Shown: piece after piece, positions 49,005 through 64,000 of the stretch
How the letters are laid out: each line of letters opens with the position of its first letter
How positions within the stretch are numbered: position 1 is the stretch's first letter
NCBI RefSeq assembly: GCF_000255115.2
Contig: NC_018068.1
Span: 3,071,977 to 3,135,976 of the forward strand
Length of the DNA stretch: 64,000 nt
Reading direction: 5' to 3'
Origin: Desulfosporosinus acidiphilus SJ4
GTDB lineage: Bacteria; Bacillota; Desulfitobacteriia; Desulfitobacteriales; Desulfitobacteriaceae
Notes under the pieces: generated by a model
What the model was told of the DNA's origin: nothing
Seen by the model: the letters and a program-made list of their open reading frames with translations, nothing else
The model's database searches: none
Position numbers and translations under genes: made by a program

Positions 49005-51023
49005 TTACCAACCTTGGGCTATAGGTGTTTCATTTTTTTCGGCCGTTTTCTTATGGATATTAAGTTTCCAGGTACGATACTCCAAAGCATCTAATAGTTT
49101 TTGGGCACCAATAAGCGGATCGACTTCAAAGATGAAGTTTCCACCAAAAACGTCATGAGCGATTTGCGTTGTGACACCATAAATCAAATCACTGCCTTCA
49201 ACCGGCGGCAACGAGCCTACATGAGTCGGCAGACCTAAGCTCACACACCAAGTACCGATAGCAACCGCTTTTTCATGCATAGCCTCAGGAGCTGAAGCTA
49301 CAAACGGAACTTTCGGGATATCGACTCCAAGTTCATTAGCCATAGCCACTGCTAAATCAGCACCTCTGCTGTTATCAACGCAGGAACCGACATGGAAGAC
49401 TAAGGGCAAACCAGTTGACAATTGTGGATTAGCATCTTCAAGGGTTTTAAGGAATGACTTAAGCCCTTCCCCGGCATATGCCTCAACAGCTAAAGGCGAC
49501 ATGAGACCGAATTTGGCGTAAGCACCTGCCGAGCAACCGGTTGCTATGACAAATACATCGTTTTTAACAAGTTCTTTTAAGACTGTAACATGGCCTTCAT
49601 CTTGAGTCCTCTTTAAATTGTTGCAGCCTGCCATTAAGGCAACTCCCTTAAGCTGACCGCTTAAGATGGCATCTGTTAACACGGAAATCGGCCGTTCCGG
49701 ACAAATTTTAGCGAAGATATCTGTAAGAGCCTCCATACTGAAGCCGGCTACAAGTTTATGACGTTCCGAGGGAATCGAAATCTTATTAGGATCTCGTTGT
49801 TTATAAGCTTCAATTGCAATGCTTATAAGTTTCTGAGCATCTTCCATGGCCGTTTCAGGTTTAAAGGCAACATGCTGGGCACCGGGAGTTTTCATGATGC
49901 CTTCTGTGGTAACAATTTTAGTGTGGAAGCATTCTGCGGCAGTTTGAACAGAAGGATAGATACATTGAATATCCACGATCATAGCATCCAAAGCCCCAGT
50001 CATAATTGCCATTTCTTGCGAAGCTGAAGACGTTGCTAAATAAACTCCTTCCCTCATGAGCAGTTCATTACCGGTACAACAAATACCTACAACGTTAACC
50101 CCTTCTGCCCCAACCTTTTGAGCTTCCGCTTTCATTTTCCTGGCAGCGGCAACGACCATTTCGCTGAGGACAGGATTGTGACCATGAACAGCTATATTTA
50201 CCATTTTGGGATCAATAACTCCCAGATTAGCTTCGGAAACAATGGGTTCAGGGACTCCAAACAACACATCGCTGAGAGTTGTTCCCACATATTCCCCAGC
50301 TAAATCCGCAAGAGCAGTTTTAATCCCACCGAAAATAATATTGACGGGGTCATTATCAACTCCCATAGCAGTTTGAGCTAATAATTCAGTAACTGTGCCG
50401 TCAATTGCTTTGGGCATAACATTAGTGTGTTGAAATTTATTACGACGCCCTTGGGTCATGAAAGAATCCAAAAATGCCAACGGACGGTCTTGATAGCGTC
50501 CAAAATCAGCATATCCCAGCTCAACTACATCTTTGAGAATTTCCTTATCCTCGCGGTCAAGAGTTGATATCCCTAATTTTTGAGCTAAATTATGAAGTTT
50601 ATCTGCTGATTTTATTTCATAATCCGGGGCGTGACCTTCGACTAAAGCATGAGCGGTATGAAGAACGTGACGTGCGTGCTCCGAATGGGATGCTGCTCCT
50701 CCGGCGATTAAACGTACAAGATTACGAGAAACAATGGTGTAAGCTGATGCTCCACAAATTCCACGACTGCCAGGACCATCTTCCTTTTTGACTCGACATG
50801 GACCGGCGATGCAAATCCTGCAGCACACACCTTTATAGCCAAAAGTACACTGCGGTTGTTGAGCTACTACGCGATCAAAAACCGTTTCGATATTTCTGCC
50901 TTCTAGCATTTTTAACATTTGGAGAGTACCTGGATCCGTTGTACGAACAGGATTCTTCGGATCAACAACACGCGGTGCATCCGATGGCCGGGCAGTATGG
51001 GTTAAATCCCGATATCTAGGCAT
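49005..51023 (-). CDS. acsA: AcsA, anaerobic carbon-monoxide dehydrogenase catalytic subunit
   Basis: A 672-aa Ni-Fe CODH. N-terminal clusters B and D are held by CCRICIAGPCRVKK and the CGAS motif; C-cluster ligands include the His near HGHNPVLSEM and Cys in GICCTGNELL, IQCIYPS, AGCNNL, ATGCSAGA and VGSCVDNSR. It interconverts CO and CO2 using ferredoxin and delivers CO to AcsB through the tunnel. Closest layout is Moorella AcsA. A CooC gene lies upstream. Confidence 0.96.
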   Translation of the reverse strand: MPRYRDLTHTARPSDAPRVVDPKNPVRTTDPGTLQMLKMLEGRNIETVFDRVVAQQPQCTFGYKGVCCRICIAGPCRVKKEDGPGSRGICGASAYTIVSRNLVRLIAGGAASHSEHARHVLHTAHALVEGHAPDYEIKSADKLHNLAQKLGISTLDREDKEILKDVVELGYADFGRYQDRPLAFLDSFMTQGRRNKFQHTNVMPKAIDGTVTELLAQTAMGVDNDPVNIIFGGIKTALADLAGEYVGTTLSDVLFGVPEPIVSEANLGVIDPKMVNIAVHGHNPVLSEMVVAAARKMKAEAQKVGAEGVNVVGICCTGNELLMREGVYLATSSASQEMAIMTGALDAMIVDIQCIYPSVQTAAECFHTKIVTTEGIMKTPGAQHVAFKPETAMEDAQKLISIAIEAYKQRDPNKISIPSERHKLVAGFSMEALTDIFAKICPERPISVLTDAILSGQLKGVALMAGCNNLKRTQDEGHVTVLKELVKNDVFVIATGCSAGAYAKFGLMSPLAVEAYAGEGLKSFLKTLEDANPQLSTGLPLVFHVGSCVDNSRGADLAVAMANELGVDIPKVPFVASAPEAMHEKAVAIGTWCVSLGLPTHVGSLPPVEGSDLIYGVTTQIAHDVFGGNFIFEVDPLIGAQKLLDALEYRTWKLNIHKKTAEKNETPIAQGW

Positions 51024-51087
51024 GTTACAACCTCCTCTTTAATAAGTTCCCCTTCTCATACTCTTATTGCTGCTAAAGAAACTCCTG

Positions 51088-51852
51088 TCATCTCCCTTCT
51101 TCGGCAATTTTTTCATAGATTTTATTGAGCTGAACTCCCAGAGACCCTTCAGGCAATTGAAAACCGCCTGTATTGATGGACATTTCCAACAGTTCGTCGC
51201 TGTAAGGGATGATGCCAATAAGCTGCTCTTCAGAAAAGCGGTCTCCAAGAAAATTTTCATCATTCAAATTGCGAATTTTATTGCCTATAACGACGACACG
51301 GGGAATACCAAGCTCATTAGCAAGTTGTTGAATCACATGGACAGTTTGTACGCTTACCTTAGACGGTTCTGTAATAATTGCCAGAACATCAACGCCTAAC
51401 GCTGTGCCACGTGTCAACTGTTCTATACCCGCGCCCATATCCAGAATCACAGTATCTTTTTCTCCAAGAATCAGCGAGTTAACTAAAGCTTGCAAGAAGC
51501 TGTTTTCCTTACAATAACAAGAAGTTCCTCCGCCTTTGATATTCCCCATCCTGAAAAAGCGAAGCTGCCCAAGAGATACACTGTAATCATTTAAGATATC
51601 ATCGACATTAGGATTAAGAGGATAAAATGCTCCGCTCCCTCCCATCCGTTCTTCAATTAGTTCCTTCATATCAACAATAGCTTTCAAATTTGTCAGTACC
51701 TCATCCGGAATTCCCAATATTGTCCCCAAACTTGCATCGGGGTCCGCATCAACTGCTAAGACTGTAATTCCTCTGTTTACTAACCAACGGGCAAAATTTG
51801 CAGTAAAGGTGGTTTTTCCGACACCACCTTTACCGGAGATCGCGATTTTCAT
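51088..51852 (-). CDS. cooC: CooC nickel-insertion ATPase of CODH
   Basis: A 254-aa MinD-like ATPase. Deviant Walker A ISGKGGVGKTTFTANFAR, VDADPDASLGTILG, and a CxC pair in GGTSCYCKENSFL. CooC inserts nickel into the C-cluster; it is placed directly before acsA, its likely target. ATG 51852 has GGAGAGGTG upstream; the in-frame GTG 51861 overlaps the site. Leading gene of the acs operon. Confidence 0.93.
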   Translation of the reverse strand: MKIAISGKGGVGKTTFTANFARWLVNRGITVLAVDADPDASLGTILGIPDEVLTNLKAIVDMKELIEERMGGSGAFYPLNPNVDDILNDYSVSLGQLRFFRMGNIKGGGTSCYCKENSFLQALVNSLILGEKDTVILDMGAGIEQLTRGTALGVDVLAIITEPSKVSVQTVHVIQQLANELGIPRVVVIGNKIRNLNDENFLGDRFSEEQLIGIIPYSDELLEMSINTGGFQLPEGSLGVQLNKIYEKIAEEGR

Positions 51853-52018
51853 GAGGATCACCTCTCCTTTTAGCTACAGTTAAGCTACCATTACCTGGAA
51901 CAAGTCTTGGTTATACAAATATATATTCTTTTTTTCTTTCCCGAATCCTTCAAACATTCTTAATTTATTTTAATATTTTTATTTTTTTACATAAGGTAAA
52001 TAAATCCATATTCATTTT

Positions 52019-52047
52019 ATATTATGATTGTATTTTATATTCAGTAA
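52019..52047 (-). promoter_or_regulatory. Candidate promoter of the acs operon
   Basis: Minus strand TTACTG (52047-52042), 17 nt, TAATAT (52024-52019). Other AT-rich -10 options exist nearby. It would give a leader of about 160 nt. Confidence 0.4.
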
Positions 52048-52064
52048 TTACTTAATATTCTGAT

Positions 52065-52083
52065 ATTAGTATGTGGTACTAAT
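52065..52083. promoter_or_regulatory. 19-bp palindrome upstream of the acs promoter
   Basis: ATTAGTA-TGTGG-TACTAAT has perfect 7-bp arms. Its centre (52074) is about 62 nt above the predicted start, the position of class I activation by Crp/Fnr proteins. The half-site differs from those at 3.1 and 6.0 kb, so a different family member or another regulator type is possible. Confidence 0.4.
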
Positions 52084-52287
52084 TCTTATTTTCCCTTTTA
52101 ATTTTTTTTAACCTGTTAAATTCATATGTATTCTCGTAAAAAATCATGATTCTTAATTACATGAGGACGGTAACTTTTAGTCAATCTAAGATATTTACTA
52201 CGTGACTCTTAGTGTTGAGGCGCAACTAAAAACAAATCATAAGATTATACCTCAGGCTTTAGAGGAAACTTCAATTTTTGCACACCT

Positions 52288-53145
52288 CTAGAGTAGAGGC
52301 CAAGGATGAAATACCAATCCAAATGCACCCGTTCCCACATGAGTCGCTATTACAGCCCCTGCTTCAAATAAGCATATCTCATGTTCTGGAAAGCGACGTT
52401 TAAGTTCCGACATGAGTTCTTCCCCTTCTTCAGGAACGTTTACATGCATGACACAAATACGGAATCTTTTTCCACTTGACAACGCTCTCACTAACTCTTC
52501 AAGTACACGCTGCCATGCTCTTGATCGAGAACGAACTTTATCAAAAACATCGATTTGACCTTGTTGGTTAAAATATAAGATCGGTTTTATCTGAAGTAAA
52601 GTTCCCAGCAAAGCAGCCGCACCGCCTATTCGACCGCCTCGTCGCAAATTTTCCAGAGTATTGACGATAAAATAAAGTTCCGTCTCTTTTTTTAACATCT
52701 GAAGTTTTGGTAATATTTCCGATGAGTCTAACCCTTGCTCTGCCCATTCTGCGGCTGCCCATGCTAAGGCCCCGAGTCCTAGAGCTGATGATCCCGAATC
52801 AAAAACATGGATTTTCTTATTAGAGGCCAAATCAATTGCCATTTGAGCTGAGCGTATAGTACCACTGATAGCACTGGAAAGATGAAGACTAATGATTTCT
52901 TCAATACCTTGTGCAAACAAGGATTCGTAGGCATCAAGAAAAGCTCCCACTGGTGGTTGGGAAGTCGTTGATAAACTATTAATATGATTAAGCTTTTCGA
53001 AATATTGCTTATTCGATAATTCAGTTTCTGGAAATGTCTCTGCACCAATCGTGACTGCAAGGGGAACGACAATAACTTGGAATTGTTGTAAAATATCTTT
53101 CGTTAAATATCCTGTAGAATCCATAACGATTCCGATTTTTCTCAA
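52288..53145 (-). CDS. DegV-family fatty-acid-binding protein
   Basis: A 285-aa protein that binds a fatty acid for the FakA kinase system. KIGIVMDSTGYLTKD at the start, TSQPPVGAFLDAYESL (the conserved T-S-x-P segment) and SSAISGTIRSAQMA with the phosphate-contacting residues are visible, followed by VFDSGSSALGLG and RRGGRIGGAAALLGTLLQIKPIL. The start is TTG 53145 with GAGGAGA 9 nt upstream; the ATG 42 nt earlier has none. No fakA is adjacent. Confidence 0.92.
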   Translation of the reverse strand: MRKIGIVMDSTGYLTKDILQQFQVIVVPLAVTIGAETFPETELSNKQYFEKLNHINSLSTTSQPPVGAFLDAYESLFAQGIEEIISLHLSSAISGTIRSAQMAIDLASNKKIHVFDSGSSALGLGALAWAAAEWAEQGLDSSEILPKLQMLKKETELYFIVNTLENLRRGGRIGGAAALLGTLLQIKPILYFNQQGQIDVFDKVRSRSRAWQRVLEELVRALSSGKRFRICVMHVNVPEEGEELMSELKRRFPEHEICLFEAGAVIATHVGTGAFGLVFHPWPLL

Positions 53146-53199
53146 AATTCTTCTCTCCTCAAAATTTATGCCAAGAATATAATTCATTAAGGAATAAGG

Positions 53200-53228
53200 T
53201 TGACAGGATTAAAGTGGTTTGTTATTAT
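53200..53228 (+). promoter_or_regulatory. Promoter of tRNA-Pro
   Basis: Perfect TTGACA (53200-53205), 17 nt, TATTAT (53223-53228); transcription near 53235, 18 nt upstream of the mature tRNA. Confidence 0.8.
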
Positions 53229-53252
53229 AATACTCGTTGTAACAAACGATTG

Positions 53253-53329
53253 CGGGGCGTAGCGCAGTTTGGTAGCGCGCTTGGTTCGGGACCAAGAGGC
53301 CGTGGGTTCGAATCCCGTCGCCCCGACCA
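53253..53329 (+). tRNA. tRNA-Pro (anticodon CGG)
   Basis: A 77-nt cloverleaf: acceptor CGGGGCG/CGCCCCG, anticodon stem CTTGG/CCAAG around TTCGGGA giving CGG, T-arm GTGGGTTCGAATCCCGT, and encoded CCA. Confidence 0.97.
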
Positions 53330-53342
53330 CTTAGCTTTGATG

Positions 53343-53369
53343 AAAGAGTTCTGATGAGAGGAACTCTTT
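53343..53369 (+). terminator. Terminator of tRNA-Pro
   Basis: AAAGAGTTC/GAACTCTTT with a 9-nt loop, then a T-rich tract. Confidence 0.88.
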
Positions 53370-53371
53370 TT

Positions 53372-53658
53372 TATTTTACACTTTATACGTTATTTTCCTT
53401 ATGAGCTTCTACCCTACCCACTTGTTCATGGTGTAATTTTATTCCATCTGTACAATCATGTAAAGCATTTAATTATGATTACAACCGTTTAGTTAATTTT
53501 CGACGTTAATCTCGTCTAATAGAATTGATTATAATTTTTATAAAAATATAACGAGTGATATAATTAGTTAATTGCACTTGTCTGTCTATCGCTAATTGTA
53601 CTTATGCCGCTCAGGGTACGAAGGCCTGAGCGTAAAACCAACTGAATAGGAGCCTAAA
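53372..53658. other. Gap before the acetyltransferase gene
   Basis: AT-rich, no gene. A hairpin CGCTCAGG/CCTGAGCG (53608-53632) lies 26 nt before the start codon and leaves the AGGAG free. The promoter is not clear. Confidence 0.45.
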
Positions 53659-54228
53659 ATGCTAGAAGGTAAGAAAATAAAAATCCGGCCCATCGAAGAA
53701 GAAGATATTGATACTCTCTATCAATGGTCAAATGATGAAGAAATCAACTATTGGTCCAGCGGTGCCTGGCCGTTGAATACTCTTTATACCAGAGACCAAA
53801 TCATTGATAAATACCTCGAAAATCCCTCGGACACTTATCGCTACGCAATGTTAAATGAAAATGATTTATTAATTGGTACCATTGGTTTTAAAGAAGTCAA
53901 TATTCCATGTCGTTCGGTAACCCTTTTCATTGTCATAGGGGAAAAATCCTATTGGGGACTGGGCTACGGTACAGATGCTCTTATAACCTTTGTGCGTTTT
54001 CTGTTTACTCAGTGGAACTTCCATAGAGTTTCCCTTGATACTTGGGATGAAAACCTTCGCGCCATCCGAACTTACGAAAAAGTCGGCTTTAAAATCGAAG
54101 GCCGGCAGCGAGAAGCGCGCTTTATCCTGGGAAATTATCATGATGCTGTTCTGATGGGGGTATTGCGCGATGAATTCTTGGCCCTTCATGGAAAATTACA
54201 GGTTGCTAAATCTGGCCGCCTAGAGTAA
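53659..54228 (+). CDS. GNAT-family N-acetyltransferase (RimJ/RimL-like)
   Basis: A 189-aa acetyltransferase. IKIRPIEEEDIDTLYQWSNDEEINYW opens the fold. The acetyl-CoA loop is VIGEKSYWGLGYGTDALITFVRFLF (near residues 95-120), with the RVSLDTWDENLRAIRTYEKVGFKIEG motif following. Members acetylate ribosomal protein N-termini or small amines; the substrate is unknown. AGGAG precedes ATG 53659. It sits between tRNA-Pro and the FMN riboswitch, apparently unrelated to riboflavin synthesis. Confidence 0.87.
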   Translation: MLEGKKIKIRPIEEEDIDTLYQWSNDEEINYWSSGAWPLNTLYTRDQIIDKYLENPSDTYRYAMLNENDLLIGTIGFKEVNIPCRSVTLFIVIGEKSYWGLGYGTDALITFVRFLFTQWNFHRVSLDTWDENLRAIRTYEKVGFKIEGRQREARFILGNYHDAVLMGVLRDEFLALHGKLQVAKSGRLE

Positions 54229-54251
54229 ACTATAAATAATTTAATCATGAA

Positions 54252-54363
54252 ATATCCTCTGGGGTTGGGTGAAATTCCCTACCGGCGGTAAAGCCCGCGA
54301 GCCTTTTGGCAGACTCGGTTAAATTCCGAGGCCGACAGTAAAGTCTGGATGAGAAGAGGAATA
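54252..54363 (+). promoter_or_regulatory. FMN riboswitch (RFN element)
   Basis: All the conserved blocks are present: GGGTGAAATTCCCTACCGGCGGTAAAGCCCGCGAGCC is the core (quoted in part: GGGTGAAATTCCC, ACCGGCGGT, AGCCCGCGAGCC), then GACTCGGTTAAATTCCGAGGCCGACAGTA in outline and GTCTGGATG, with P1 TCCTCT/AGAGGA. It controls the rib operon: FMN binding lets the terminator at 54413 form. Confidence 0.97.
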
Positions 54364-54412
54364 GGTCGTTAAAAAGTGTTTTTTGCGCGCTTTTTTATTA
54401 TGACTTTAACCC

Positions 54413-54442
54413 AACACTCGAGGATAAACGAGTGTTTTTTTT
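54413..54442 (+). terminator. Regulated terminator of the FMN riboswitch
   Basis: AACACTCG/CGAGTGTT with an 8-nt loop followed by TTTTTT, between the RFN aptamer and ribD. It is the expression platform. A weaker G-U-containing hairpin lies at about 54371-54396. Confidence 0.88.
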
Positions 54443-54517
54443 ATTTTCCTAAATTTAAAAGTTTTTCGATTTTCTTTTGGGGAAAACTAAACTATCAAAT
54501 ATTAAGAAAGGATTCTT

Positions 54518-55690
54518 ATGCAGCCAAAAAATACTTCGCAAAAATTAACAGACGAAATATACATGTCTAAAGCCCTAGAACTTGCGGCACTGGCCTTGGG
54601 GAGAACCAGTCCTAATCCCGTTGTCGGTTGTGTAATCGTTAAAAACGATCAAATTGTGGGAAAAGGATATCACCGGAAAGCCGGCACACCTCACGCTGAA
54701 ATTCATGCCTTGTCAGAAGCGAAAGACCAGGCGAGGGGTGCTACGGCCTACGTAACTCTGGAACCTTGCTCGCATTTTGGCAGAACTCCGCCATGCTCGG
54801 ATGCTTTGATCAGAGCCGGAGTAAAACGTGTCGTTGTCGCCCTAAAGGATCCCAATCCTCTGGTAGCAGGTGGTGGAATTCAGCGCTTGCATGAAGCCGG
54901 AATCCCGGTTGAGGTGGGAGTCATGTCTCATGAGGCTGCTATGTTGAATGAAGCATTTTTTAAAGCCATAACAACAAAAATGCCATTTGTTCTTTATAAA
55001 ACAGCTCTAACCTTAGACGGCAAAATTGCAACGGAAACCGGAGATTCACGCTGGGTAAGCAATGAAAGCTCGCGCCGTTATGTTCACCAATTACGTAATT
55101 ATTACGATGTTATTCTCGTAGGAAGCGGAACGATCCTCCGCGACAATCCCGCACTTACTTGCCGCTTACCCGGCGGACGAGATCCAATCCGACTTATTGT
55201 CGACGGAGAATTGCGTATTCCAGAAAACTCACAGGTTCTTACTTCTTCCGGCGAGAGCCCTTGCATCATTGCTACGACGAAGGCAGCGCCGATTGAAAAA
55301 CTCAAACAGCTAACAAAGCTTGAAAACCTAGAAATCTGGCAATATGATACACCACGCCATGTCCCCGTTAAAGAAATGCTTAAAGATCTATTCAGTCGGG
55401 GTTGGAACAGCGTCTTACTCGAAGGCGGCGGGACCCTTGCCGGTACTCTCATCCAAGAACAATGTGTTGACAAACTGGAATGTTTTATTGCACCCAAACT
55501 TGTGGGAGGAAACGGTCCCTCTCCCCTCTCCGGATTACATATCCCGTTAATGAGTGAGGCAATTGACCTTCATGATCTCCAGGTAGATACCACTTTTGGA
55601 GATATTCATGTAACGGGATATCTGACGTCCCGACAAATAATCAATGACGAGAATTCAAAAGGAGGATATTCGTGTTTACCGGAATTGTAG
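54518..55690 (+). CDS. ribD: RibD, bifunctional riboflavin deaminase/reductase
   Basis: A 390-aa enzyme. The N-terminal deaminase has zinc site HAEIHAL and PCSHFGRTPPCSDAL (residues about 60-100), and the C-terminal reductase binds NADPH (from about 155, KTALTLDGKIATETGDSRWVS...LLEGGGTLAGTLIQE). It carries out the second and third steps from GTP toward riboflavin. AAAGGA lies before ATG 54518. The N-terminal extension is about 15 residues longer than usual. First gene behind the FMN riboswitch, overlapping ribE by 19 nt. Confidence 0.96.
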   Translation: MQPKNTSQKLTDEIYMSKALELAALALGRTSPNPVVGCVIVKNDQIVGKGYHRKAGTPHAEIHALSEAKDQARGATAYVTLEPCSHFGRTPPCSDALIRAGVKRVVVALKDPNPLVAGGGIQRLHEAGIPVEVGVMSHEAAMLNEAFFKAITTKMPFVLYKTALTLDGKIATETGDSRWVSNESSRRYVHQLRNYYDVILVGSGTILRDNPALTCRLPGGRDPIRLIVDGELRIPENSQVLTSSGESPCIIATTKAAPIEKLKQLTKLENLEIWQYDTPRHVPVKEMLKDLFSRGWNSVLLEGGGTLAGTLIQEQCVDKLECFIAPKLVGGNGPSPLSGLHIPLMSEAIDLHDLQVDTTFGDIHVTGYLTSRQIINDENSKGGYSCLPEL

Positions 55691-56325
55691 AAGAACTTGG
55701 TATCGTCCGCACTCTTCGTCTCTTACCGGACTCCGGTCAGCTTACCCTTCAGGGAAAAAAAGTTCTTGAAGGTACACAGGTGGGTGACAGCATTGCTGTT
55801 AATGGGGTTTGTCTAACAGTTATTCATCAAAACCAAAATGAATTCACTGTTGACGTTATGGCTGAAACGCTGGCAAAAACAAATCTCGGTGAACTGAAGA
55901 ACGGCAGCCATGTGAATCTGGAAAGAGCCTTGCAGCTTCAAACCCGTCTGGGGGGACATTTAGTAAGCGGACATGTCGATGGAGTTGGTTCAATTCGAAG
56001 GACAACTCCTTGGGGAATTGCACAACTTCTCGAAATCAGTGCCCCCTCCACTCTTCTTTCCTTCATCCTGCCTAAGGGTTCTATTGCCATCGATGGGATT
56101 TCACTAACCGTAATTGATGTAGAAGATGATTATTTTACAGTATCTCTAATTCCCCACACGTTTAAGGAAACCACCTTAGGCATAAAAAAAATCGGTGCTA
56201 CAGTTAACTTAGAGACAGACCTTATTGGCAAATATGTTGCCCGCTTCATGGGTCTCCAGAAGACACCCGCTAAATCCAAAGAAAATCTATCCCTTAATTT
56301 TTTAGCAGAAAATGGCTTTACCTAA
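55672..56325 (+). CDS. ribE: RibE, riboflavin synthase alpha chain
   Basis: A 217-aa protein with two lumazine-binding repeats. MFTGIVEELG begins it, and SIAVNGVCLTV and SIAIDGISLTVID mark repeat sites with FTVSLIPHTFKETTLG. It dismutates two dimethylribityllumazine molecules to riboflavin. Start GTG 55672, inside ribD, has AAAGGAGG 7 nt upstream. The two-repeat length is normal. Confidence 0.96.
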   Translation: MFTGIVEELGIVRTLRLLPDSGQLTLQGKKVLEGTQVGDSIAVNGVCLTVIHQNQNEFTVDVMAETLAKTNLGELKNGSHVNLERALQLQTRLGGHLVSGHVDGVGSIRRTTPWGIAQLLEISAPSTLLSFILPKGSIAIDGISLTVIDVEDDYFTVSLIPHTFKETTLGIKKIGATVNLETDLIGKYVARFMGLQKTPAKSKENLSLNFLAENGFT

Positions 56326-56398
56326 CTTATAACTGAGGAAAGGATATGAAGAAGATACCTTGCTGAAAGTACAAGAAATTTCTTGAGGAGTGATTATC

Positions 56399-57601
56399 AT
56401 GCATTTTAATACGATTGAAGAAGCCATTGAAGATATTCGCCAAGGTAAAATGATCGTCATGGTTGATGATGAAGACCGAGAAAACGAAGGCGATCTGGTT
56501 ATGGCCGCAGAGCTTTCTACCCCCGAAGCAATTAATTTCATGGCAACTTACGGAAGAGGTCTTATTTGCGTTCCCATGACCAAGGATCGTATTCAAGCCC
56601 TACAATTGGAGCCTATGGTTACCCAGAATACAGATCCGCATGGAACAGCCTTTACAGTCAGCGTCGATGCCTCTGACAGTTCCACGGGAATTTCTGCTTT
56701 TGAACGCGCAAATACCGTTAAAGTTCTGATGGATCCCAAGAGCAAACCTGACGATTTGCATCGCCCGGGACATATCTTTCCTCTTCAAGCCCGAGAAGGC
56801 GGCGTGCTGGTACGAGCCGGCCATACGGAAGGTTCCGTAGATTTGGCTCGTCTTGCCGGATTACAACCGGCTGGTGTTATTTGTGAGATCATGAATGAAA
56901 ATGGAACTATGGCCCGAGTACCTGACTTACAAATTTTTGTCGAGAAACATAATCTCAAAATAGTAACATTAAAAGATCTTATTGCCTATCGTCGTCAATC
57001 CGAAAAGCTGATTGAAAGAGGTGAAACCATCCATCTTCCGACAGATTACGGTGATTTCTATGCCACCGGTTATCTCAGTATCATTGATCAAAAAGAACAT
57101 TTGGCTATTGTTAAAGGAAATGTTGATAATGGAAATCCGGTTCTTGTAAGAGTTCATTCAGAATGTCTCACAGGGGATGTCTTCCATTCCCGCCGTTGTG
57201 ATTGCGGTGACCAACTTGCAGCTGCACTGGAAGAAATTGAACGTGAAGGTCGTGGTGTCTTGCTTTACATGAGACAAGAAGGCCGCGGTATAGGTCTCTT
57301 AAATAAACTTAAAGCTTATAAACTGCAAGAAGAGGGCAAAGATACAGTGGAGGCAAATCTTGCTTTAGGATTCCCGGAAGACCTGCGCGATTACGGTGTA
57401 GGCGCCCAAATCTTAGCGGATCTAGGTATTTCTAAAGTTCGTCTGATGACAAATAACCCCAAGAAAATTGTCGGACTGGAGGGCTACGGCTTAAATGTCG
57501 TTGAAAGAGTGCCTCTGGAGATCCCTTCAAAGCCCGAGAACTTCAAGTACCTTTGTACAAAGAAAACAAAGTTAGGTCATTATTTATCGGCCGTAAGATA
57601 A
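56399..57601 (+). CDS. ribBA: RibBA, DHBP synthase / GTP cyclohydrolase II
   Basis: A 400-aa bifunctional enzyme. RibB domain: [16 protein letters not shown] near residue 26, with [14 protein letters not shown]. RibA domain: zinc cysteines in [21 protein letters not shown] and [16 protein letters not shown]. It supplies both precursors of riboflavin. ATG 56399 has GAGGAG 8 nt upstream; GTG 56390 overlaps it. Confidence 0.96.
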
Positions 57602-57637
57602 TACCATAAACTAAGCAATAGAAAGGATGCACTTACT

Positions 57638-58099
57638 ATGAGAACCATTGAAGGAAATTTGTTAGCTCAAGAATTAAAGATTGGAATTATCGCTGCTCGA
57701 TTTAATGAATTTATTACCGGCAAACTTGTAAGCGGAGCTTTGGATGCCTTAAGACGTCATGGTGCCCGCGAGGAAAATATTGAATTAGCTTGGGTGTCGG
57801 GGGCTTTTGAAATTCCTCTTGTTGCCCAAACCATGGCAAATTCGAAAAAATATGATGCCGTGATTTGCCTGGGAGCCGTCATTCGCGGTGCAACTCCGCA
57901 CTTTGATTTAGTGAGTAATGAAGTTAGTAAAGGAATCGCTCAAGTCGGCTTACAAAGCGGTATTCCAGTTATTTTTGGAGTATTATCCACGGACAGTATA
58001 GAGCAAGCTATTGAACGCGCGGGAACGAAATCAGGAAACAAAGGATTTGATGCGGCAATGACTGCCATTGAAACCGCTAACCTACTTAAAGCATTTTAA
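57638..58099 (+). CDS. ribH: RibH, 6,7-dimethyl-8-ribityllumazine synthase
   Basis: A 153-aa lumazine synthase. [35 protein letters not shown] and [27 protein letters not shown] are the conserved active-site blocks, followed by [23 protein letters not shown]. It completes the operon order ribD-ribE-ribBA-ribH, as in Bacillus. Confidence 0.96.
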
Positions 58100-58152
58100 A
58101 TGATAGACAAAAACAATATTAATTGGTAGAATATGGTTGACCGTCCACCAAT

Positions 58153-58218
58153 AACTCCTTGTCAAAATGGTTGATCTTTAATAGACTCATTAAGATGACT
58201 AGTTTTTGACAAGGAGTT
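58153..58218 (+). promoter_or_regulatory. Perfect inverted repeat that buries the sigma-factor Shine-Dalgarno
   Basis: AACTCCTTGTCAAAA (58153-58167) and TTTTGACAAGGAGTT (58204-58218) are perfect complements of 15 bp; inside, ATCTTTAAT and ATTAAGAT add a second helix. The right arm contains the AAGGAG at 58211-58216 that would start the sigma factor 9 nt later. In RNA the ribosome-binding site is therefore paired. Confidence 0.75.
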
Positions 58219-58225
58219 GAGTGCT

Positions 58226-58840
58226 ATGTCTTCTAAAGAAAGTGAATTTGAAACTTCGATGCTTAAGGCAGCGCGCTCAGGTGATAGAGATGCTTTAAAC
58301 CAATTGATAGAGTATTATGAACCTGAAGTACGTATGATTGCCTGCAAATACTTTTTGCCGAGGGCCGATTATGATGATCTCATCCAAGAAGGACGAATAG
58401 CCATCTATCGAGCAGTTTTGTCATATGATGACCGCTTAAATATCCCTTTCCTTCATTTTTTGAGAATGGTTGTTAAACGAAAGCTAATCGATAGTATCAG
58501 AAAATATACCCGTAATAAGCATGTCAATCTGAACAATGCTTATTCCCTGAATAATACAATTTCCGACTCGGAAGAAACAAGCTTCATCTCGCTTCTTCCT
58601 AATGCTGAAGATCCCGCCACTACAGTTATTGCCAGTGAAGAGGCTCGTTCTATTATTAACGATTTAAACCGAGATCTCTCCAAACTTGAACGAATCGTAT
58701 TTGAGCACTATTTTCTTCAAGGATTCAAACAGCGAGAATTGTCTGAGCAACTCGGACTTCAGCCCAAATCTTTGGACAACGCTATCCAACGTATTAGGCG
58801 AAAAACCGTTCTTTATCGTTCTCGACAAATAGCTGGTTAA
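58226..58840 (+). CDS. SigH-like RNA polymerase sigma factor
   Basis: A 204-aa sigma-70-family protein. Region 2 (PRADYDDLIQEGRIAIYRAVLSYDDRLNIPFLHFLRMVVKRKLIDSIRKY) and region 4 (LERIVFEHYFLQGFKQRELSEQLGLQPKSLDNAIQRIRRK) are joined by a short linker. TRNKHVNLNNAYSLNN and LDNAIQRIRRK resemble Bacillus SigH, the stationary-phase sporulation sigma. It is not in the usual sigH neighbourhood, so it may be a paralogue. ATG 58226 has AAGGAG 9 nt upstream. Translation may be limited by the upstream hairpin. The next gene overlaps its transcript closely. Confidence 0.88.
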   Translation: MSSKESEFETSMLKAARSGDRDALNQLIEYYEPEVRMIACKYFLPRADYDDLIQEGRIAIYRAVLSYDDRLNIPFLHFLRMVVKRKLIDSIRKYTRNKHVNLNNAYSLNNTISDSEETSFISLLPNAEDPATTVIASEEARSIINDLNRDLSKLERIVFEHYFLQGFKQRELSEQLGLQPKSLDNAIQRIRRKTVLYRSRQIAG

Positions 58841-58866
58841 TTACCAGCCCTGTGGAGGAGTATCGA

Positions 58867-59400
58867 ATGCTTTCCTTTTCCAGTTTCGTTTTCTCTTGTC
58901 GAATGCGTCTTGCAAAACTTAAGCATCATAAATTAGCACTGAGTTCAACTCTAATCGTCCTAATGATCGTAATATTCATAGGCCCCCCAGTTTATAAAGA
59001 AAGTTGGCTCGATCCTTTTAGTACCCTGAATCTAAGTAATCGCGAGCTTCATCCTCATACGATCACAATGCTTGGTATGCTTAAATCGGACGATCCTTAT
59101 CATCCCTATTATTTCTCTGACCAAAAAACCATAAGTGAATTAATGCATGACTTACAGCATACCACACCAGTTTCCCTATCGGATCTTCCCGCAGATTTCT
59201 CAAAAGATCAAAAAACAGAATTCTTTACATTGCATCGTGCTTCATCAAAGTTTCATTCTGAAGAGGATTATGCACTTCAATACAACCCCCGACTAGGAGT
59301 TGTTTATTTTCGCCAACAATTATTTCATATTAATGAATCGGCTATTTACACCTTAAACAAAATCACGAATAGCATGACTCCGGGATGGTGGAAATCCTAA
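58867..59400 (+). CDS. Single-pass membrane protein next to the sigma factor, unknown
   Basis: A 177-aa protein: a short basic N-terminus, one membrane helix (LSSTLIVLMIVIFIGPPVY, near residues 30-48) and an outer domain of about 125 residues with repeated Tyr/His (HPHTITMLGMLKSDDPYHPYYFSDQKT). GGAGGAG lies 6 nt before ATG 58867; a GTG 15 nt earlier overlaps it. It begins 26 nt after the sigma gene, so the two are co-transcribed. A role as a partner or anti-sigma is possible by position only; there is no zinc or ASD motif in the short cytoplasmic tail. Confidence 0.7.
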   Translation: MLSFSSFVFSCRMRLAKLKHHKLALSSTLIVLMIVIFIGPPVYKESWLDPFSTLNLSNRELHPHTITMLGMLKSDDPYHPYYFSDQKTISELMHDLQHTTPVSLSDLPADFSKDQKTEFFTLHRASSKFHSEEDYALQYNPRLGVVYFRQQLFHINESAIYTLNKITNSMTPGWWKS

Positions 59401-59448
59401 AGGATCATGAATAACCCTTGAAATACATTGGGATTCGTAATAAAATTG

Positions 59449-59480
59449 GGCTGTAACAAATTGGTAAGTTTGTTACAGCC
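59449..59480. terminator. Terminator of the sigma-factor operon
   Basis: A 12-bp perfect stem (59449-59460 with 59469-59480) with an 8-nt loop, then TGTTTTCTTT on the plus strand. It also lies past the convergent CotF-like gene. Confidence 0.87.
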
Positions 59481-59502
59481 TGTTTTCTTTAGCATTCGCT
59501 TT

Positions 59503-59700
59503 TTAAGCAATTCCACCATTTTGATTAATTAACTTGCTAGCTTTACTATGTGCATTGGTAGCCTCGTTAGCTAAGCGTAAGTAGATATCTCTCAATTGCC
59601 CGTGATGAGCCCGAGTAGCCAAGGTCATGTATCCCATGGCAGCACTTGCGGCATCTTTCTCATAATCGTAAAGCATATCTAAATCAGTAAAATCACTCAT
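59503..59700 (-). CDS. Small CotF-like spore-coat protein
   Basis: A 65-aa all-helical protein (MSDFTDLDMLYDYEKDAASA start; LRLANEATNAHSKASKLINQ end) of the size and pattern of clostridial CotF fragments, which form ferritin-like helix pairs on spores. AAGGAGG precedes ATG 59700. It lies 15 nt after a second such gene, which it resembles weakly; the two may together make one full CotF fold. The assignment is by composition and helical layout. Confidence 0.6.
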   Translation of the reverse strand: MSDFTDLDMLYDYEKDAASAAMGYMTLATRAHHGQLRDIYLRLANEATNAHSKASKLINQNGGIA

Positions 59701-59715
59701 TTTAATCCTCCTTTT

Positions 59716-59925
59716 CTATTGGATTTCGTTGATACCCTTTTTAAAGTATCCTATAACGTCTTCCAAACCTTTGGCCTGATCTTTAAAAAATCCTTTTACA
59801 CTAGGATCTTTGGCCATTTCAGAATACAAAGCGCATTTCTTCATGGCAGTTTCGTTTTCAATAATACTTCGTGTCAGCATTCCTTGATCCAGAAGTTTTT
59901 TCATTTCCATCTCATTAAGCTGCAT
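59716..59925 (-). CDS. Small CotF-like spore-coat protein
   Basis: A 69-aa helical protein with start MQLNEMEMKKLLDQGMLTRS and a second helix AKDPSVKGFFKDQAKGLEDVIGYFKK. The same type as the 65-aa gene 15 nt downstream and surely co-transcribed. AAAAAGGAGG lies before ATG 59925. A single Cys (KKCALYSEM) is present. I infer a role in the spore coat from the family resemblance. Confidence 0.6.
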   Translation of the reverse strand: MQLNEMEMKKLLDQGMLTRSIIENETAMKKCALYSEMAKDPSVKGFFKDQAKGLEDVIGYFKKGINEIQ

Positions 59926-60042
59926 TTTGGTCCCTCCTTTTTGAAACTTATTCCATATAACAGTTTCAGGATGTGTAAAAATGACATAAATTATTCACCA
60001 AATCCAAATTTCTTATTATAGAAATGGATTTGTCCCTATACC

Positions 60043-60071
60043 TTTAACCTAATTTGACTTTTTCCTATAAT
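60043..60071 (+). promoter_or_regulatory. Candidate promoter of the DivIVA-like gene
   Basis: TTTAAC (60043-60048), 17 nt, perfect TATAAT (60066-60071), 39 nt before the start codon. Confidence 0.45.
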
Positions 60072-60109
60072 ACCTATTTCATACAAGACAAAGAAGGAGG
60101 CTTAGAGAT

Positions 60110-60661
60110 TTGGAAATGCCAGACTTTAAAAGAGTACTCCGGGGTTATGAGCCCGAGGCAGTCGATCAAGCCTGGGCTGAAACAGATCGCCAATTATCAG
60201 AAGCAAACACGGCAAACAAAGAACTTCGTTTGCAAATTAACAGTCTCAGAGAGCAAAATACAGAATGGGGAAATCGTCTTAAAGCTTATGAAAAAATTGA
60301 AAGTGATCTGCGAGATGCTTTATTAAGCGCTCAGAGAGTTGCTAATCAAGTTCGGGAGGAAGCAGCAAAAAATGCTGAAACTATCATAAAATCGGCTCGA
60401 GATGAAAGTGAAGTCATCCTTCATGAAGCAACCCGTCTCTCTGAATCAAAGGAAGCGGAAGTCGAAACAATGCTTGTTGAAAAAAGACAAGAGGTTCTTA
60501 AATTAGAAGACGAAATTCAGGCATTGCTATGTAGGAAAGATGAACTCCAAGGTCTCGTCGAAAAAAGCATCCATCATCTAGACGTTGTTCAAAAATTATT
60601 GGGAGATCTCCATAGACCTGTTTCTTCCAATATCATCTCCGTGATTACTGAAGTATCTTAA
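60110..60661 (+). CDS. DivIVA-like coiled-coil protein
   Basis: A 183-aa protein. PDFKRVLRGYEPEAVDQAWAE is the DivIVA N-terminal domain (usually F-x-x-x-x-x-GY), which binds curved membranes. Nearly all the rest is coiled coil (about residues 30-160). Such proteins mark poles and septa or tether other proteins. TTG 60110 has AAGGAGG 9 nt upstream and is the likely start; an ATG follows two codons later. A single-gene unit with its own promoter. Confidence 0.8.
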   Translation: MEMPDFKRVLRGYEPEAVDQAWAETDRQLSEANTANKELRLQINSLREQNTEWGNRLKAYEKIESDLRDALLSAQRVANQVREEAAKNAETIIKSARDESEVILHEATRLSESKEAEVETMLVEKRQEVLKLEDEIQALLCRKDELQGLVEKSIHHLDVVQKLLGDLHRPVSSNIISVITEVS

Positions 60662-60832
60662 TCTCGATTCGCCGTAGCTTCGAAGACACTCGAACAACCA
60701 CACTGAATACGCGTCGTTAGATGCCCCGGGCCATAAGCTAATCTGCATATCGCCAGCGGCCAAAAAGAGGCTGTACCAAAACTTCTCAGCCTCCTCATTG
60801 CGTTCTCACGTTTGCTCCCCTAATCATTAAAG

Positions 60833-60877
60833 AAAGGCGTTATCACTCCACTATAGTAGTGAATTGATAACGCCTTT
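60833..60877 (-). terminator. Terminator of the ubiD-like gene
   Basis: A 13-bp arm pair AAAGGCGTTATCA/TGATAACGCCTTT with inner CACT/AGTG, next to the stop at 60884, then TCTTTAATG on the minus strand. Confidence 0.82.
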
Positions 60878-60883
60878 GGCTAT

Positions 60884-62650
60884 TTAAAGGGACAACCCGT
60901 ATTTATTCCAACGATCATCAACCTGGCGGACCGTAGCCTCATCAGGAAGAACTTCCCCGGGATAATCGGGTTTCATCCGGGCATCAATTAAAATGGGGCC
61001 GTGATAGACGAGTCGATTCTGCTTAACTTCAGTGACCGCATAAATATCGTGAGCAGGATTAAAACGGGTAAATACTTGCCATAAGAATCCGGTATTATCC
61101 AGTGCTAAATCAAGATCATCAACCATCACTATGAAAGGCCAATTCTTAAACTGTTCATCTTGGAGATGGGGTAAAATTTCCTCAGCGAGTTCCGGGGCAT
61201 CCCTATAGGGCAATGACTCTAATATAAGACACCCTGGGCAAAAGGGTTTGATTCGAGACAGTCCAGCCAGAGTTTCGCCTTCAAATTGCCCAGGCAAATC
61301 TCTTTTTGTATCACCCAAGCCAAGCATGATTGCCTTGCTGCCATGATTGAGTCTCCGCCCAGTGTAATCTAACGTATCCATCGATGTTTCACTTAAAATC
61401 ATAAGATCAGATTCAGGTTCAAAGCGAGCGAGCACTGTTTCCAATAGGCCCCGGAAATTCTTGAGATCAAGCTGAACATCCGTAAGAAGCAAGAATTTTG
61501 TTAAGGTGAGCTGTCCTTCCCCAAGGATTCTAAAGGCATGGGCTAATGCTTCCCGGCGATAACTTTCTCTGACAACGGCAGCTGCCAGAGCATGGAATCC
61601 TGTCTCGGCATACGTCCAAAGTGATTTTATGCCGGGCATGACTACCGGAAACATGGGGGATAATAAAGATTGTAAATATTCCCCAATAAAGTAATCCTCC
61701 TGGCGAGGTTTGCCAACCACTGTCGCTGGATAAATCGCATCCCGCCTATGGTAAATTGCCTGGACATTAAAGACAGGAAAATCGTGGGTAAGAGAATAAT
61801 AGCCATAATGATCCCCAAAAGGTCCCTCAGGTTTGCGGAGATGCGGAGGAACATTTCCGCAGATAGCGAACTCCGCTTCAGCGATAAGGGGGTGATCATG
61901 AGAAGGAACATTTACCCGTGATAATTTTTCTCCCATTAAAAAGGAGGTGAACATTAACTCGGGCAGCATTTCAGGAAGTGGTGCTATGGCCGAAAGGATC
62001 AAAGCCGGCGGGCCTCCCAGAAAAAGGGTTGTCGGGAGATCCTGCCCTAGCCGTTCTGCTTCAAAGTAATGAAAACCTCCGCCTTTATGTATTTGCCAAT
62101 GGATACCTGTCTGTTGTTGATTAAATATTTGAATGCGATACATGCCAAGATTATGTTCTTTGGTAATGGGATGTTCTGTGTAAACCAAAGGTAAGGTCAC
62201 AAAAGGACCACCATCCTCCGGCCAACTTGTTAGAACCGGAAGACGAGTTAAATCGACGGACTTCTCTCTGATTTCAAGAACGGGAGCATTATTAGGTTTT
62301 ATCAAACGCATGCCGCTTTTGGCCATGAACATAAGCCAGTCTTTTTCTTGCCATAGCATTGACGGTTTCGGCGGAAGCAGACGATTTAGAGCCGATACCG
62401 CTCTTTGGACAGTTTCTTCCGGCCTAGGTCCCACAGCTAAATCTACTCTTCGCCGAGTACCAAACAAATTCGTCACAACCGGAAAATTACTGCCTTTAAC
62501 TCTTTTGAAAAATAGGGCCGGCCCTTCTGCTTGAATAACTCGGCGATGAATTTCGGCCAGCTCAAGATAGGGGTCAACTTCAGCCTCGATTTCGACGATT
62601 TGCTTTTCCTTTTTAAGAGTATCGATAAACTGGCGCAAATTAATATGCAT
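60884..62650 (-). CDS. UbiD-family prenylated-FMN decarboxylase
   Basis: A 588-aa decarboxylase that uses prenyl-FMN. Recognised by GPALFFKRVKGSNFPVVTNLFGT, the substrate-side MYRIQIFNQQQTGIHWQIHKGGG and the EGPFGDHYGYYS acidic motif. It is in the 590-600-residue branch that includes the menaquinone-pathway decarboxylases (MqnL type), which fits a menaquinone user, but aromatic-acid decarboxylases are also this size. An LpdD-like gene lies 38 nt upstream; no ubiX is in the window. Confidence 0.88.
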   Translation of the reverse strand: MHINLRQFIDTLKKEKQIVEIEAEVDPYLELAEIHRRVIQAEGPALFFKRVKGSNFPVVTNLFGTRRRVDLAVGPRPEETVQRAVSALNRLLPPKPSMLWQEKDWLMFMAKSGMRLIKPNNAPVLEIREKSVDLTRLPVLTSWPEDGGPFVTLPLVYTEHPITKEHNLGMYRIQIFNQQQTGIHWQIHKGGGFHYFEAERLGQDLPTTLFLGGPPALILSAIAPLPEMLPELMFTSFLMGEKLSRVNVPSHDHPLIAEAEFAICGNVPPHLRKPEGPFGDHYGYYSLTHDFPVFNVQAIYHRRDAIYPATVVGKPRQEDYFIGEYLQSLLSPMFPVVMPGIKSLWTYAETGFHALAAAVVRESYRREALAHAFRILGEGQLTLTKFLLLTDVQLDLKNFRGLLETVLARFEPESDLMILSETSMDTLDYTGRRLNHGSKAIMLGLGDTKRDLPGQFEGETLAGLSRIKPFCPGCLILESLPYRDAPELAEEILPHLQDEQFKNWPFIVMVDDLDLALDNTGFLWQVFTRFNPAHDIYAVTEVKQNRLVYHGPILIDARMKPDYPGEVLPDEATVRQVDDRWNKYGLSL

Positions 62651-62688
62651 AATTCACCTTCTTAATTTTAATTAAGGCGATATTTATC

Positions 62689-63174
62689 TTATGCCTTGGT
62701 AACAGATTTTAAGGACCTTAAGGCAGCCTGTGTAAGGTTCCTGCAGTTTCTCATAATTTCATCTAATTCTTCCGAATTTAAGTGATCCGAATGTATGCCC
62801 GAAGTAATAGACACAGGAGACAAGATTTCCTGAGCCAATATTTCCGCCATGGTTCGAGCTACCTCCACGTCTTTGTGTCCTGGTACCGGAGTCATATAAA
62901 CATCCGAGCTCCACCCCTCTCCGCGTAAACTCGGACGTGGAGTGGCCAGGACTACTCCCCCGACATGTGGTTTTTCTCCTCCTGTCAAAAGGCCTTGCAG
63001 ACCACTGCCTGTATCGATTAGGGTTAGCCAAACCTGACAGCGCCCAACTCCTTCTTGCCATTGATATAACTTTAAACAGGAGCGGCTATCAAACAGCAAA
63101 AGTGATCCCCACCTCTCAAACGTTATATCCCGCTTTATTATACGTTTGACCGTGTTATTAGACAAGTTTTTCAT
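62689..63174 (-). CDS. LpdD-like partner of UbiD decarboxylase
   Basis: About 161 aa, recognised by GGEKPHVGGVVLATPRPSLRG and YMTPVPGHKDVEVARTMAEILAQEI, with SITSGIHSDHL following. These match the small LpdD family, which helps load prenyl-FMN into UbiD-type enzymes. No membrane segment. The start is uncertain: ATG 63174 has TGGAG about 15 nt upstream; GTG codons at 63213 and 63222 are in frame but lie in the adjacent structured element. Directly upstream of the ubiD-like gene on the same strand. Confidence 0.65.
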   Translation of the reverse strand: MKNLSNNTVKRIIKRDITFERWGSLLLFDSRSCLKLYQWQEGVGRCQVWLTLIDTGSGLQGLLTGGEKPHVGGVVLATPRPSLRGEGWSSDVYMTPVPGHKDVEVARTMAEILAQEILSPVSITSGIHSDHLNSEELDEIMRNCRNLTQAALRSLKSVTKA

Positions 63175-63203
63175 TAAAATAGGCAATGCTCCAGGTAGGG
63201 TAT

Positions 63204-63426
63204 CTTCGCTCACATCGTTCACTCAGCAATCCGAGGCTCGCTCACTTGCTTGCGTGGGAGCTACGCCGAACCTCTGGGAATTACCTGATGTGAACCGCTG
63301 GCCAGGACGGCCGAGTGTCCCCGAAGCCAAGGACGGCGAAAGGGGACCACGGCTCCGCTTCTCCCCACGCAAGCTTTGTGAGCTTTACCGCCTCTCCTTG
63401 CAATGAGCTCACTCTTGTGGACGAAG
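63204..63426. ncRNA. GC-rich, highly self-complementary element of about 220 nt (structured RNA or palindromic repeat)
   Basis: A long irregular helix folds the whole segment. CTTCG/CGAAG (63204-63208 with 63422-63426); CTCA-GCAA with TTGC-aa-TGAG (63222-63229 with 63398-63407); GAGGC/GCCTC (63233-63237 with 63390-63394); GCTCAC/GTGAGC (63240-63245 with 63378-63383); GCTTGCGTGGGAG with 63361-63374, one bulge. Inside are GGCC-AGGAC-GGCC (63300-63312) and a nested hairpin GTCCCC-gaa-GCC...GGC-gaaa-GGGGAC (63317-63347). GC is about 60%, far above the flanks. No T-run follows and no frame in it looks coding. Confidence 0.65.
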
Positions 63427-63493
63427 CTACCTTCCTTTGAGGTCTATAGTGTTCGGGACAGTTTTTTCAGAATAGAATGTAAAGTATAAAAAG

Positions 63494-63528
63494 CGGCTTC
63501 CGCCTAGCAATGCTAAGAGCGGAAGCCG
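63494..63528 (-). terminator. Terminator of clpB
   Basis: CGGCTTCCGC/GCGGAAGCCG with inner TAGC/GCTA, then TTTTTATACTTT on the minus strand, 70 nt past the clpB stop. Confidence 0.88.
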
Positions 63529-63598
63529 AAAGATATATTGTTTTGCTGAACAAATGGCCAAAATTCTTCGTATTCTTTTACTTGTGCTTATTCTGTAC

Positions 63599-64000
63599 TT
63601 ATACTTGGAAGGTATAATCTCCTGAAACATCTACATCTACAACTATTTTTTGTCCGTCCTTGAATTCACCTTGCAGCAATTTAAGAGCTACCGGATTCTG
63701 AAGACGTTGTTGAATCACTCGTTTAAGAGGTCTTGCCCCATAAATAGGATCATATCCTTCGTCTGCCAACTTCTGCAAGGCCTGCTCCGTCAATTCTAGG
63801 GATATCTTTCGCTCACTCAAACGCTTGCGTAAAAGACCGAGTTGGATTTCGACAATTTTGCCAATGTGTGAACGGTCAAGCGGATGAAAGACAATGACTT
63901 CATCAAGCCGATTGAGGAATTCAGGGCGGAAATGTTGCCTCAGTTCCTCATTGATGGCTGATCGCACTTCCTCTTGGGCTGCATTTCGCCGGGACATTTC
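63599..64000 (-). CDS. clpB: ClpB chaperone, C-terminal fragment (5' part outside window)
   Basis: 133 codons to the edge: end of the second AAA+ domain with sensor 1/arginine region (FRPEFLNRLDEVIVFHPL) and the D2-small domain GYDPIYGARPLKRVIQQRLQNPVALKLL with sensor 2 Arg. The chaperone disaggregates proteins with DnaK. The C-terminal tail is short (DGQKIVVDVDVSGDYTFQV). Reading continues past 64000. No ATG here is the true start. Confidence 0.93.
   Translation of the reverse strand, partial: EMSRRNAAQEEVRSAINEELRQHFRPEFLNRLDEVIVFHPLDRSHIGKIVEIQLGLLRKRLSERKISLELTEQALQKLADEGYDPIYGARPLKRVIQQRLQNPVALKLLQGEFKDGQKIVVDVDVSGDYTFQV

Follow-up and report, generated by a model that had tools for sequence, protein, structure and literature searches.

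Upstream of a gene for a sigma factor in Desulfosporosinus acidiphilus SJ4, a perfect inverted repeat covers the ribosome-binding site with one arm and the -35 box of a conserved promoter with the other. We suggest that its hairpin insulates the sigma gene from RNA that reads in from the riboflavin (rib) genes, and we hold this to be a plausible explanation, slightly short of a probable one. The gene's own promoter, TTGTCA-17-TAGACT, would give an RNA from about position 58194 that lacks the left arm, and on this RNA the ribosome-binding site would stay free in a short leader. RNA entering from the riboflavin operon would have both arms, form a long hairpin and hide the site. As an outcome, the sigma factor would be produced off its own promoter and not off stray rib transcription. 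Taken together, the promoter, the pairing and the gene order are most simply explained by a hairpin that works on read-in RNA alone. Where genes follow closely on an operon that lacks a terminator, they need a means of keeping their own control. If the explanation is true, one sequence would serve the DNA as a promoter box and the RNA as a lock on translation, and the locked gene would be that of a sigma factor whose mistimed production could mis-programme the cell.

The inverted repeat and its predicted fold

The analysis started from one stretch of 64,000 nucleotides, called the window here, and all positions refer to it. The arms of the repeat, AACTCCTTGTCAAAA at 58153–58167 and TTTTGACAAGGAGTT at 58204–58218 on the forward strand, were located by repeat search. 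They are 15 nt each, 100% complementary, and separated by a gap of 36 nt. The left arm holds the -35 box. The right arm contains the whole of AAGGAG (58211–58216), which lies 5' of the ATG start codon of the sigma gene at 58226. The repeat was thus found as it had been described in the initial annotation, and the same is true of the inner helix said to extend its stem. In the predicted fold of the RNA from 58145 to 58260, the arm stem and the inner helix form together with an energy of -29.8 kcal/mol and a z of -3.24, and only 1 of 200 shuffles folded as well or better.

Perfect repeats of at least 11 bp with a gap of 3–100 nt were counted over the whole window. There were 12 of them, and the only ones with a gap of more than 20 nt were the 15-bp repeat and one 11-bp repeat. 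In 30 base-composition shuffles of the window (500-bp blocks), no repeat of at least 14 bp with a gap of up to 100 nt was obtained, which bears out the earlier view that the repeat is unexpected by chance. A scan of positions 50000–64000 with Rfam at gathering score returned no family at the repeat, and the only matches in this region were an FMN riboswitch and a tRNA.

To compare relatives, the sigma protein was searched against 60 genomes, all of which gave matches; in most of the more distant genomes the best match was a relative of at most 39% identity. The window's genus, Desulfosporosinus, makes up 29 of the 60 genomes, and for each of these we compared the leader belonging to the best match (L001–L029, the window's own included). 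Outside this set, two extra copies in genome G011 were read, as were eight stretches from other genera. The 29 leaders are not independent of one another, and the tree-based counts given below allow for this kinship in part.

The repeat had been described as conserved as a full complement, and this holds for its core but not for its ends. Standard pairs make up 85.5% of the pair cells in the 29 species. As read from the alignment, the eight core pairs (columns 5–12) all form in 24 of the 29 when G-U pairs are allowed, but at the outer end the last four pairs are formed in 20, 24, 13, and 22 species, and the innermost pair in 16. Compensatory changes between the arms had been proposed as a check in relatives, and there was no covariation signal above shuffles in the 29 species. 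The -35 side of the stem shows little variation. RNAalifold retained no more than 6 pairs, and its covariation term was -0.04. A single double change, from A-U to U-A in the outer stem, is common to two species and is the only one of its kind.

The left arm and the promoter of the sigma gene

The left arm looks like the -35 region of a sigma-A-like promoter that belongs to the sigma gene itself. The -35 box TTGTCA (58159–58164, forward strand) is inside the arm, and the -10 box TAGACT (58182–58187, forward strand) follows it at a spacing of 17 bp. All 29 Desulfosporosinus genomes have TTGTCA, the exact 17-bp spacer, and a -10 box of the form TA[GAC]A[CA]T. This arrangement is that of a sigma-A-type promoter, with a TTGACA-like -35 box, a spacing of 16–18 bp, and a TATAAT-like -10 box. 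In the consensus scan, the window's promoter has 9 of 12 consensus matches. The -10 box is weak, with an average of 4.1 of 6 matches.

On the tree, parsimony required 0 changes at all six positions of the -35 box and 0 changes at four of the six positions of the -10 box. Per site, the mean number of changes rose from 0 for the -35 box and 1.3 for the -10 box to 5.8 for the six bases that follow the -10 box and 12.3 for the 12 unaligned bases ahead of the right arm; at 30 fourfold sites of the sigma gene it was 8.4. Among the 29 species the distance from arm to arm varies between 43 and 61 nt while the promoter spacing stays fixed. Since the -35 box stands exactly 17 bp from a conserved -10 box in 29 of 29 genomes, transcription from this promoter should begin between the two arms, near 58194 (58193–58195 on the forward strand, as predicted from the position of the -10 box), and the resulting mRNA should lack the left arm.

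Similar boxes are found outside the genus. The sequences L076–L080, which were anchored by hand, have TTGTCA or TTGCCA 17 bp before TAGACT, TAAACT, or TAAGCT, and L030 has TTGTCT and TACACT when its spacer is taken as 18. Within the genus, L009 has a tandemly duplicated -10 region (TTTATTAGACTC twice), the second copy lying some 35 nt downstream of the first base of the -35 box, and this duplication gives the longest arm spacing, 61 nt. We also considered a wider regulon of the promoter pattern and rejected it, since TTGTCAAA-N15-TARACT barely recurs outside the sigma locus: it had 29 matches in the 29 genomes, 25 at the sigma locus and four elsewhere, and the reversed control had three.

Farther upstream, a dyad TGG-N8-CCA (58134–58147) starts 25 bp 5' of the -35 box. 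This distance is exactly 25 bp in 26 of the 29 species and 26 bp in one, and the dyad is absent in two; each of its six bases has 0–2 parsimony changes. Judged from this spacing and conservation, the dyad is probably the site of a DNA-binding regulator, and we treat it as a candidate for a dimeric one. A wider regulon of the upstream block was rejected, as its matches elsewhere were no richer than the reversed control; with one mismatch allowed, there were 52 matches, 24 at the sigma locus and 28 elsewhere, and 46 in the control. The Spo0A box is TGTCGAA, and inspection by eye revealed no exact copy of it.

The right arm and pairing in the long and the short RNA

Judged by its rate of change, the right arm is constrained as well. 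The eight positions before AAGGAG, TTTTTGAC, have 0–4 changes, compared with 10–15 in the unaligned leader 5' of them. Slow change at AAGGAG and at the TTGAG that follows is expected of a ribosome-binding site, but at TTTTTGAC it is not. The exact 11-base core has only four other copies in the genome, and none of them is followed by AGGAG.

Pairing was predicted for the long RNA with both arms and for the short RNA. In the long RNA, the mean probability that GACAAGG pairs with the left arm is 0.84 or higher in 28 of the 29 species; L024, in which arm pairing is lost, is the sole exception in the genus. AAGGAG as a whole is predicted to be less open in the long than in the short RNA in 27 of 29 species (the exceptions are L007 and L008, the latter with its anchor corrected). 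For GGAG alone, the predictions make it nearly fully hidden on the long RNA (less than 0.05 open) in 14 of 29 species, and more open on the long than on the short RNA in 8 of 28 (L008 left out). On the short RNA, only 6 of 29 species, the mis-anchored L008 among them, have GGAG more than half open. The final G of AAGGAG faces a left-arm base with which it can pair in just 13 of the 29 species. When the left arm of each species was shuffled 20 times, at least 5 of the shuffles matched the real arm in hiding GGAG in 15 of the 29 rows, including the mis-anchored L008, and 0 or 1 of 20 did so in the other 14. The earlier claim that the ribosome-binding site is hidden in RNA therefore agrees with the predictions for an RNA in which both arms are present, but mRNA from the sigma promoter is expected to begin between them.

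Six relatives from other genera were folded, and the pairing was absent in three of them (L076, L077, and L079). These three retain the promoter though they lack the arm pairing, and L079 also retains the upstream ribH. In G011, which we take to be D. fructosivorans through the matching contigs L064 and L065, two further sigma copies (L084 and L085) keep the region of the ribosome-binding site, and the promoter and the left arm are absent. The bases before AAGG in these copies depart from the usual form, which fits a dependence on the left arm in these two cases only.

The upstream riboflavin genes

Gene calls and neighbourhood comparison place ribH, which encodes lumazine synthase, directly upstream of the sigma gene and co-directional with it (57638–58099, forward strand). 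It is upstream of the sigma gene and in the same strand direction in 28 of the 29 genomes. A simple scan recognised no terminator between ribH and the sigma gene in any of the 28 loci preceded by ribH. In these loci the end of the ribH match is 42–233 nt from the -35 box; the match stops short of the stop codon in L002, L003, and L026. The FMN riboswitch identified by Rfam (54251–54364, forward strand) is ahead of the rib genes, and the transcript of these genes may run into the sigma gene.

L013, the one genome of the 29 without this order, comes from a metagenome assembly and has the sigma gene and its leader inverted between ribH and the next gene, so that they face ribH. It could be a natural case without rib read-in, and an assembly error is possible. 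The 10-bp core of L013 has three changes, each of which leaves a G-U pair.

Alternative explanations

The -35 box and the Shine-Dalgarno region might each be kept separately, with their complementarity being a by-product without function. TTGTCA and AAGGAG do make up part of the pairing, there is no covariation, and the pairs beyond the core are poorly kept. The three of six other-genus relatives without pairing, and the full hiding of GGAG in only 14 of 29 species, also speak for a by-product. However, TTTTTGAC, 5' of AAGGAG, evolves slowly yet is not Shine-Dalgarno sequence, and the -35 box is preceded by two C, one retained in 27 and the other in 28 of 29 species. Moreover, the three species with changes in the flank of the left core (L010, L013, and L024) are all within the nine that have a changed right core, an overlap with a hypergeometric value of about 0.02 when calculated post hoc, by hand, and with relatedness ignored. 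A by-product seems to us rather doubtful.

The repeat might also act in DNA, as two binding sites for a regulator that represses the promoter: CCTTGTCAAA, which overlaps the -35 box, and its inverted counterpart in the leader. Such an operator would account for the coincidence of the left copy with the -35 box and for the conservation of the core at both places, and TTGWCAA is nearly palindromic in itself. The distances between the arms (43, 44, 46, 47, 49, 50, 51, 54, and 61) do not keep the two copies on a fixed helix face, however. In addition, the 11-base core CCTTGTCAAAA is not enriched in its own genome (6 sites vs. 9 for the reversed control), and the promoter pattern is hardly found elsewhere. 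We consider a DNA operator unlikely.

The initial annotation proposed a hairpin on the main mRNA, through which translation would respond to temperature, a protein, or an sRNA, and this is improbable: the stem over AAGGAG is stable, and a promoter-like pair at 58104–58132 with 10 of 12 matches in the window would start RNA 5' of both arms, but the invariant promoter begins RNA between them (the predicted start at about 58194 is between 58167 and 58204, the interval in which a start would refute the proposal according to the initial annotation itself), the upstream -10-like box is without a conserved -35 partner (at least 4 of 6 matches in 4 of 29 species, and in 16% of shuffles), and no Rfam family is found at the repeat. 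This proposal is largely displaced. The -10-like hexamer of the upstream pair does have A2 in 29 of 29 species and T6 in 25 of 29, and it leaves some room for a hairpin on the main mRNA; these conserved bases may belong to the adjoining regulator site. An inverted repeat over a ribosome-binding site is not necessarily a leader riboregulator, as its left arm may be absent from the main mRNA.

Similar arrangements in phages and mobile elements

In the fold-back inhibition of IS10/Tn10, the extra arm of an outside transcript hides the transposase start, and it is the ends of a mobile element that are involved there. Phage genes come closer in layout. For the lysozyme gene e of phage T4, PMC3014915 describes longer early transcripts that adopt an inhibitory structure, and a promoter of T4 and related phages within the region encoding the 5' strand. 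For I-TevI and segB of T4 and mobE of phage Aeh1, PMC2988022 describes transcripts from upstream promoters that hide the ribosome-binding site and transcripts from adjacent late promoters that free it.

The layout of gene e and I-TevI, in which the long RNA hides the start and the gene's own promoter skips the 5' strand, is like that proposed for the sigma locus. As in gene e, the promoter of the sigma gene shares DNA with the 5' strand; here it is the -35 box that lies in the left arm, and the start would be downstream of that arm. However, gene e belongs to a phage and owes its timing to a late promoter of that phage, whereas the sigma gene is chromosomal and follows a rib operon, and its control is predicted from sequence. 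I-TevI, segB, and mobE are mobile homing endonuclease genes, whereas the gene here is a host regulator. By analogy, the sigma locus would work like gene e and I-TevI, as a possible member of their class. In searches of the open-access literature, PMC8450116 included, we met no cellular sigma factor with a start-hiding long RNA or with 'long undecoded transcript isoforms', which does not prove that there is none. Somewhat more tentatively than for insulation itself, we propose that the chromosomal sigma gene of one genus has a -35 box that doubles as the arm of a translation-blocking hairpin, as a phage-style two-level insulator that would leave the flavin-operon RNA silent and confine translation to RNA from the gene's own regulated promoter.

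The sigma factor and its neighbour

Protein and profile searches assign the product of the sigma gene (58226–58840, forward strand; 204 aa) to the sigma-70 family and to the wider SigH group. The label SigH-like is a fair description, as the likeness to the SigH (Spo0H) family spans nearly the whole length, but the protein is not SigH itself. It scored 120 bits against TIGR02859, for which the cut-off is 294.8, and among the SigH equivalog models listed there was none whose cut-off it reached. A second gene in the same genome encodes a product with 37% identity to the sigma protein. The gene 3' of the sigma gene (58867–59400) encodes a protein with one membrane segment, as judged by eye, and no Pfam match. 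At E 1e-5, its product was found near the sigma gene in 17 of the 29 genus loci, some of the loci being cut short, and in L030, and it is possibly a partner of the sigma factor.
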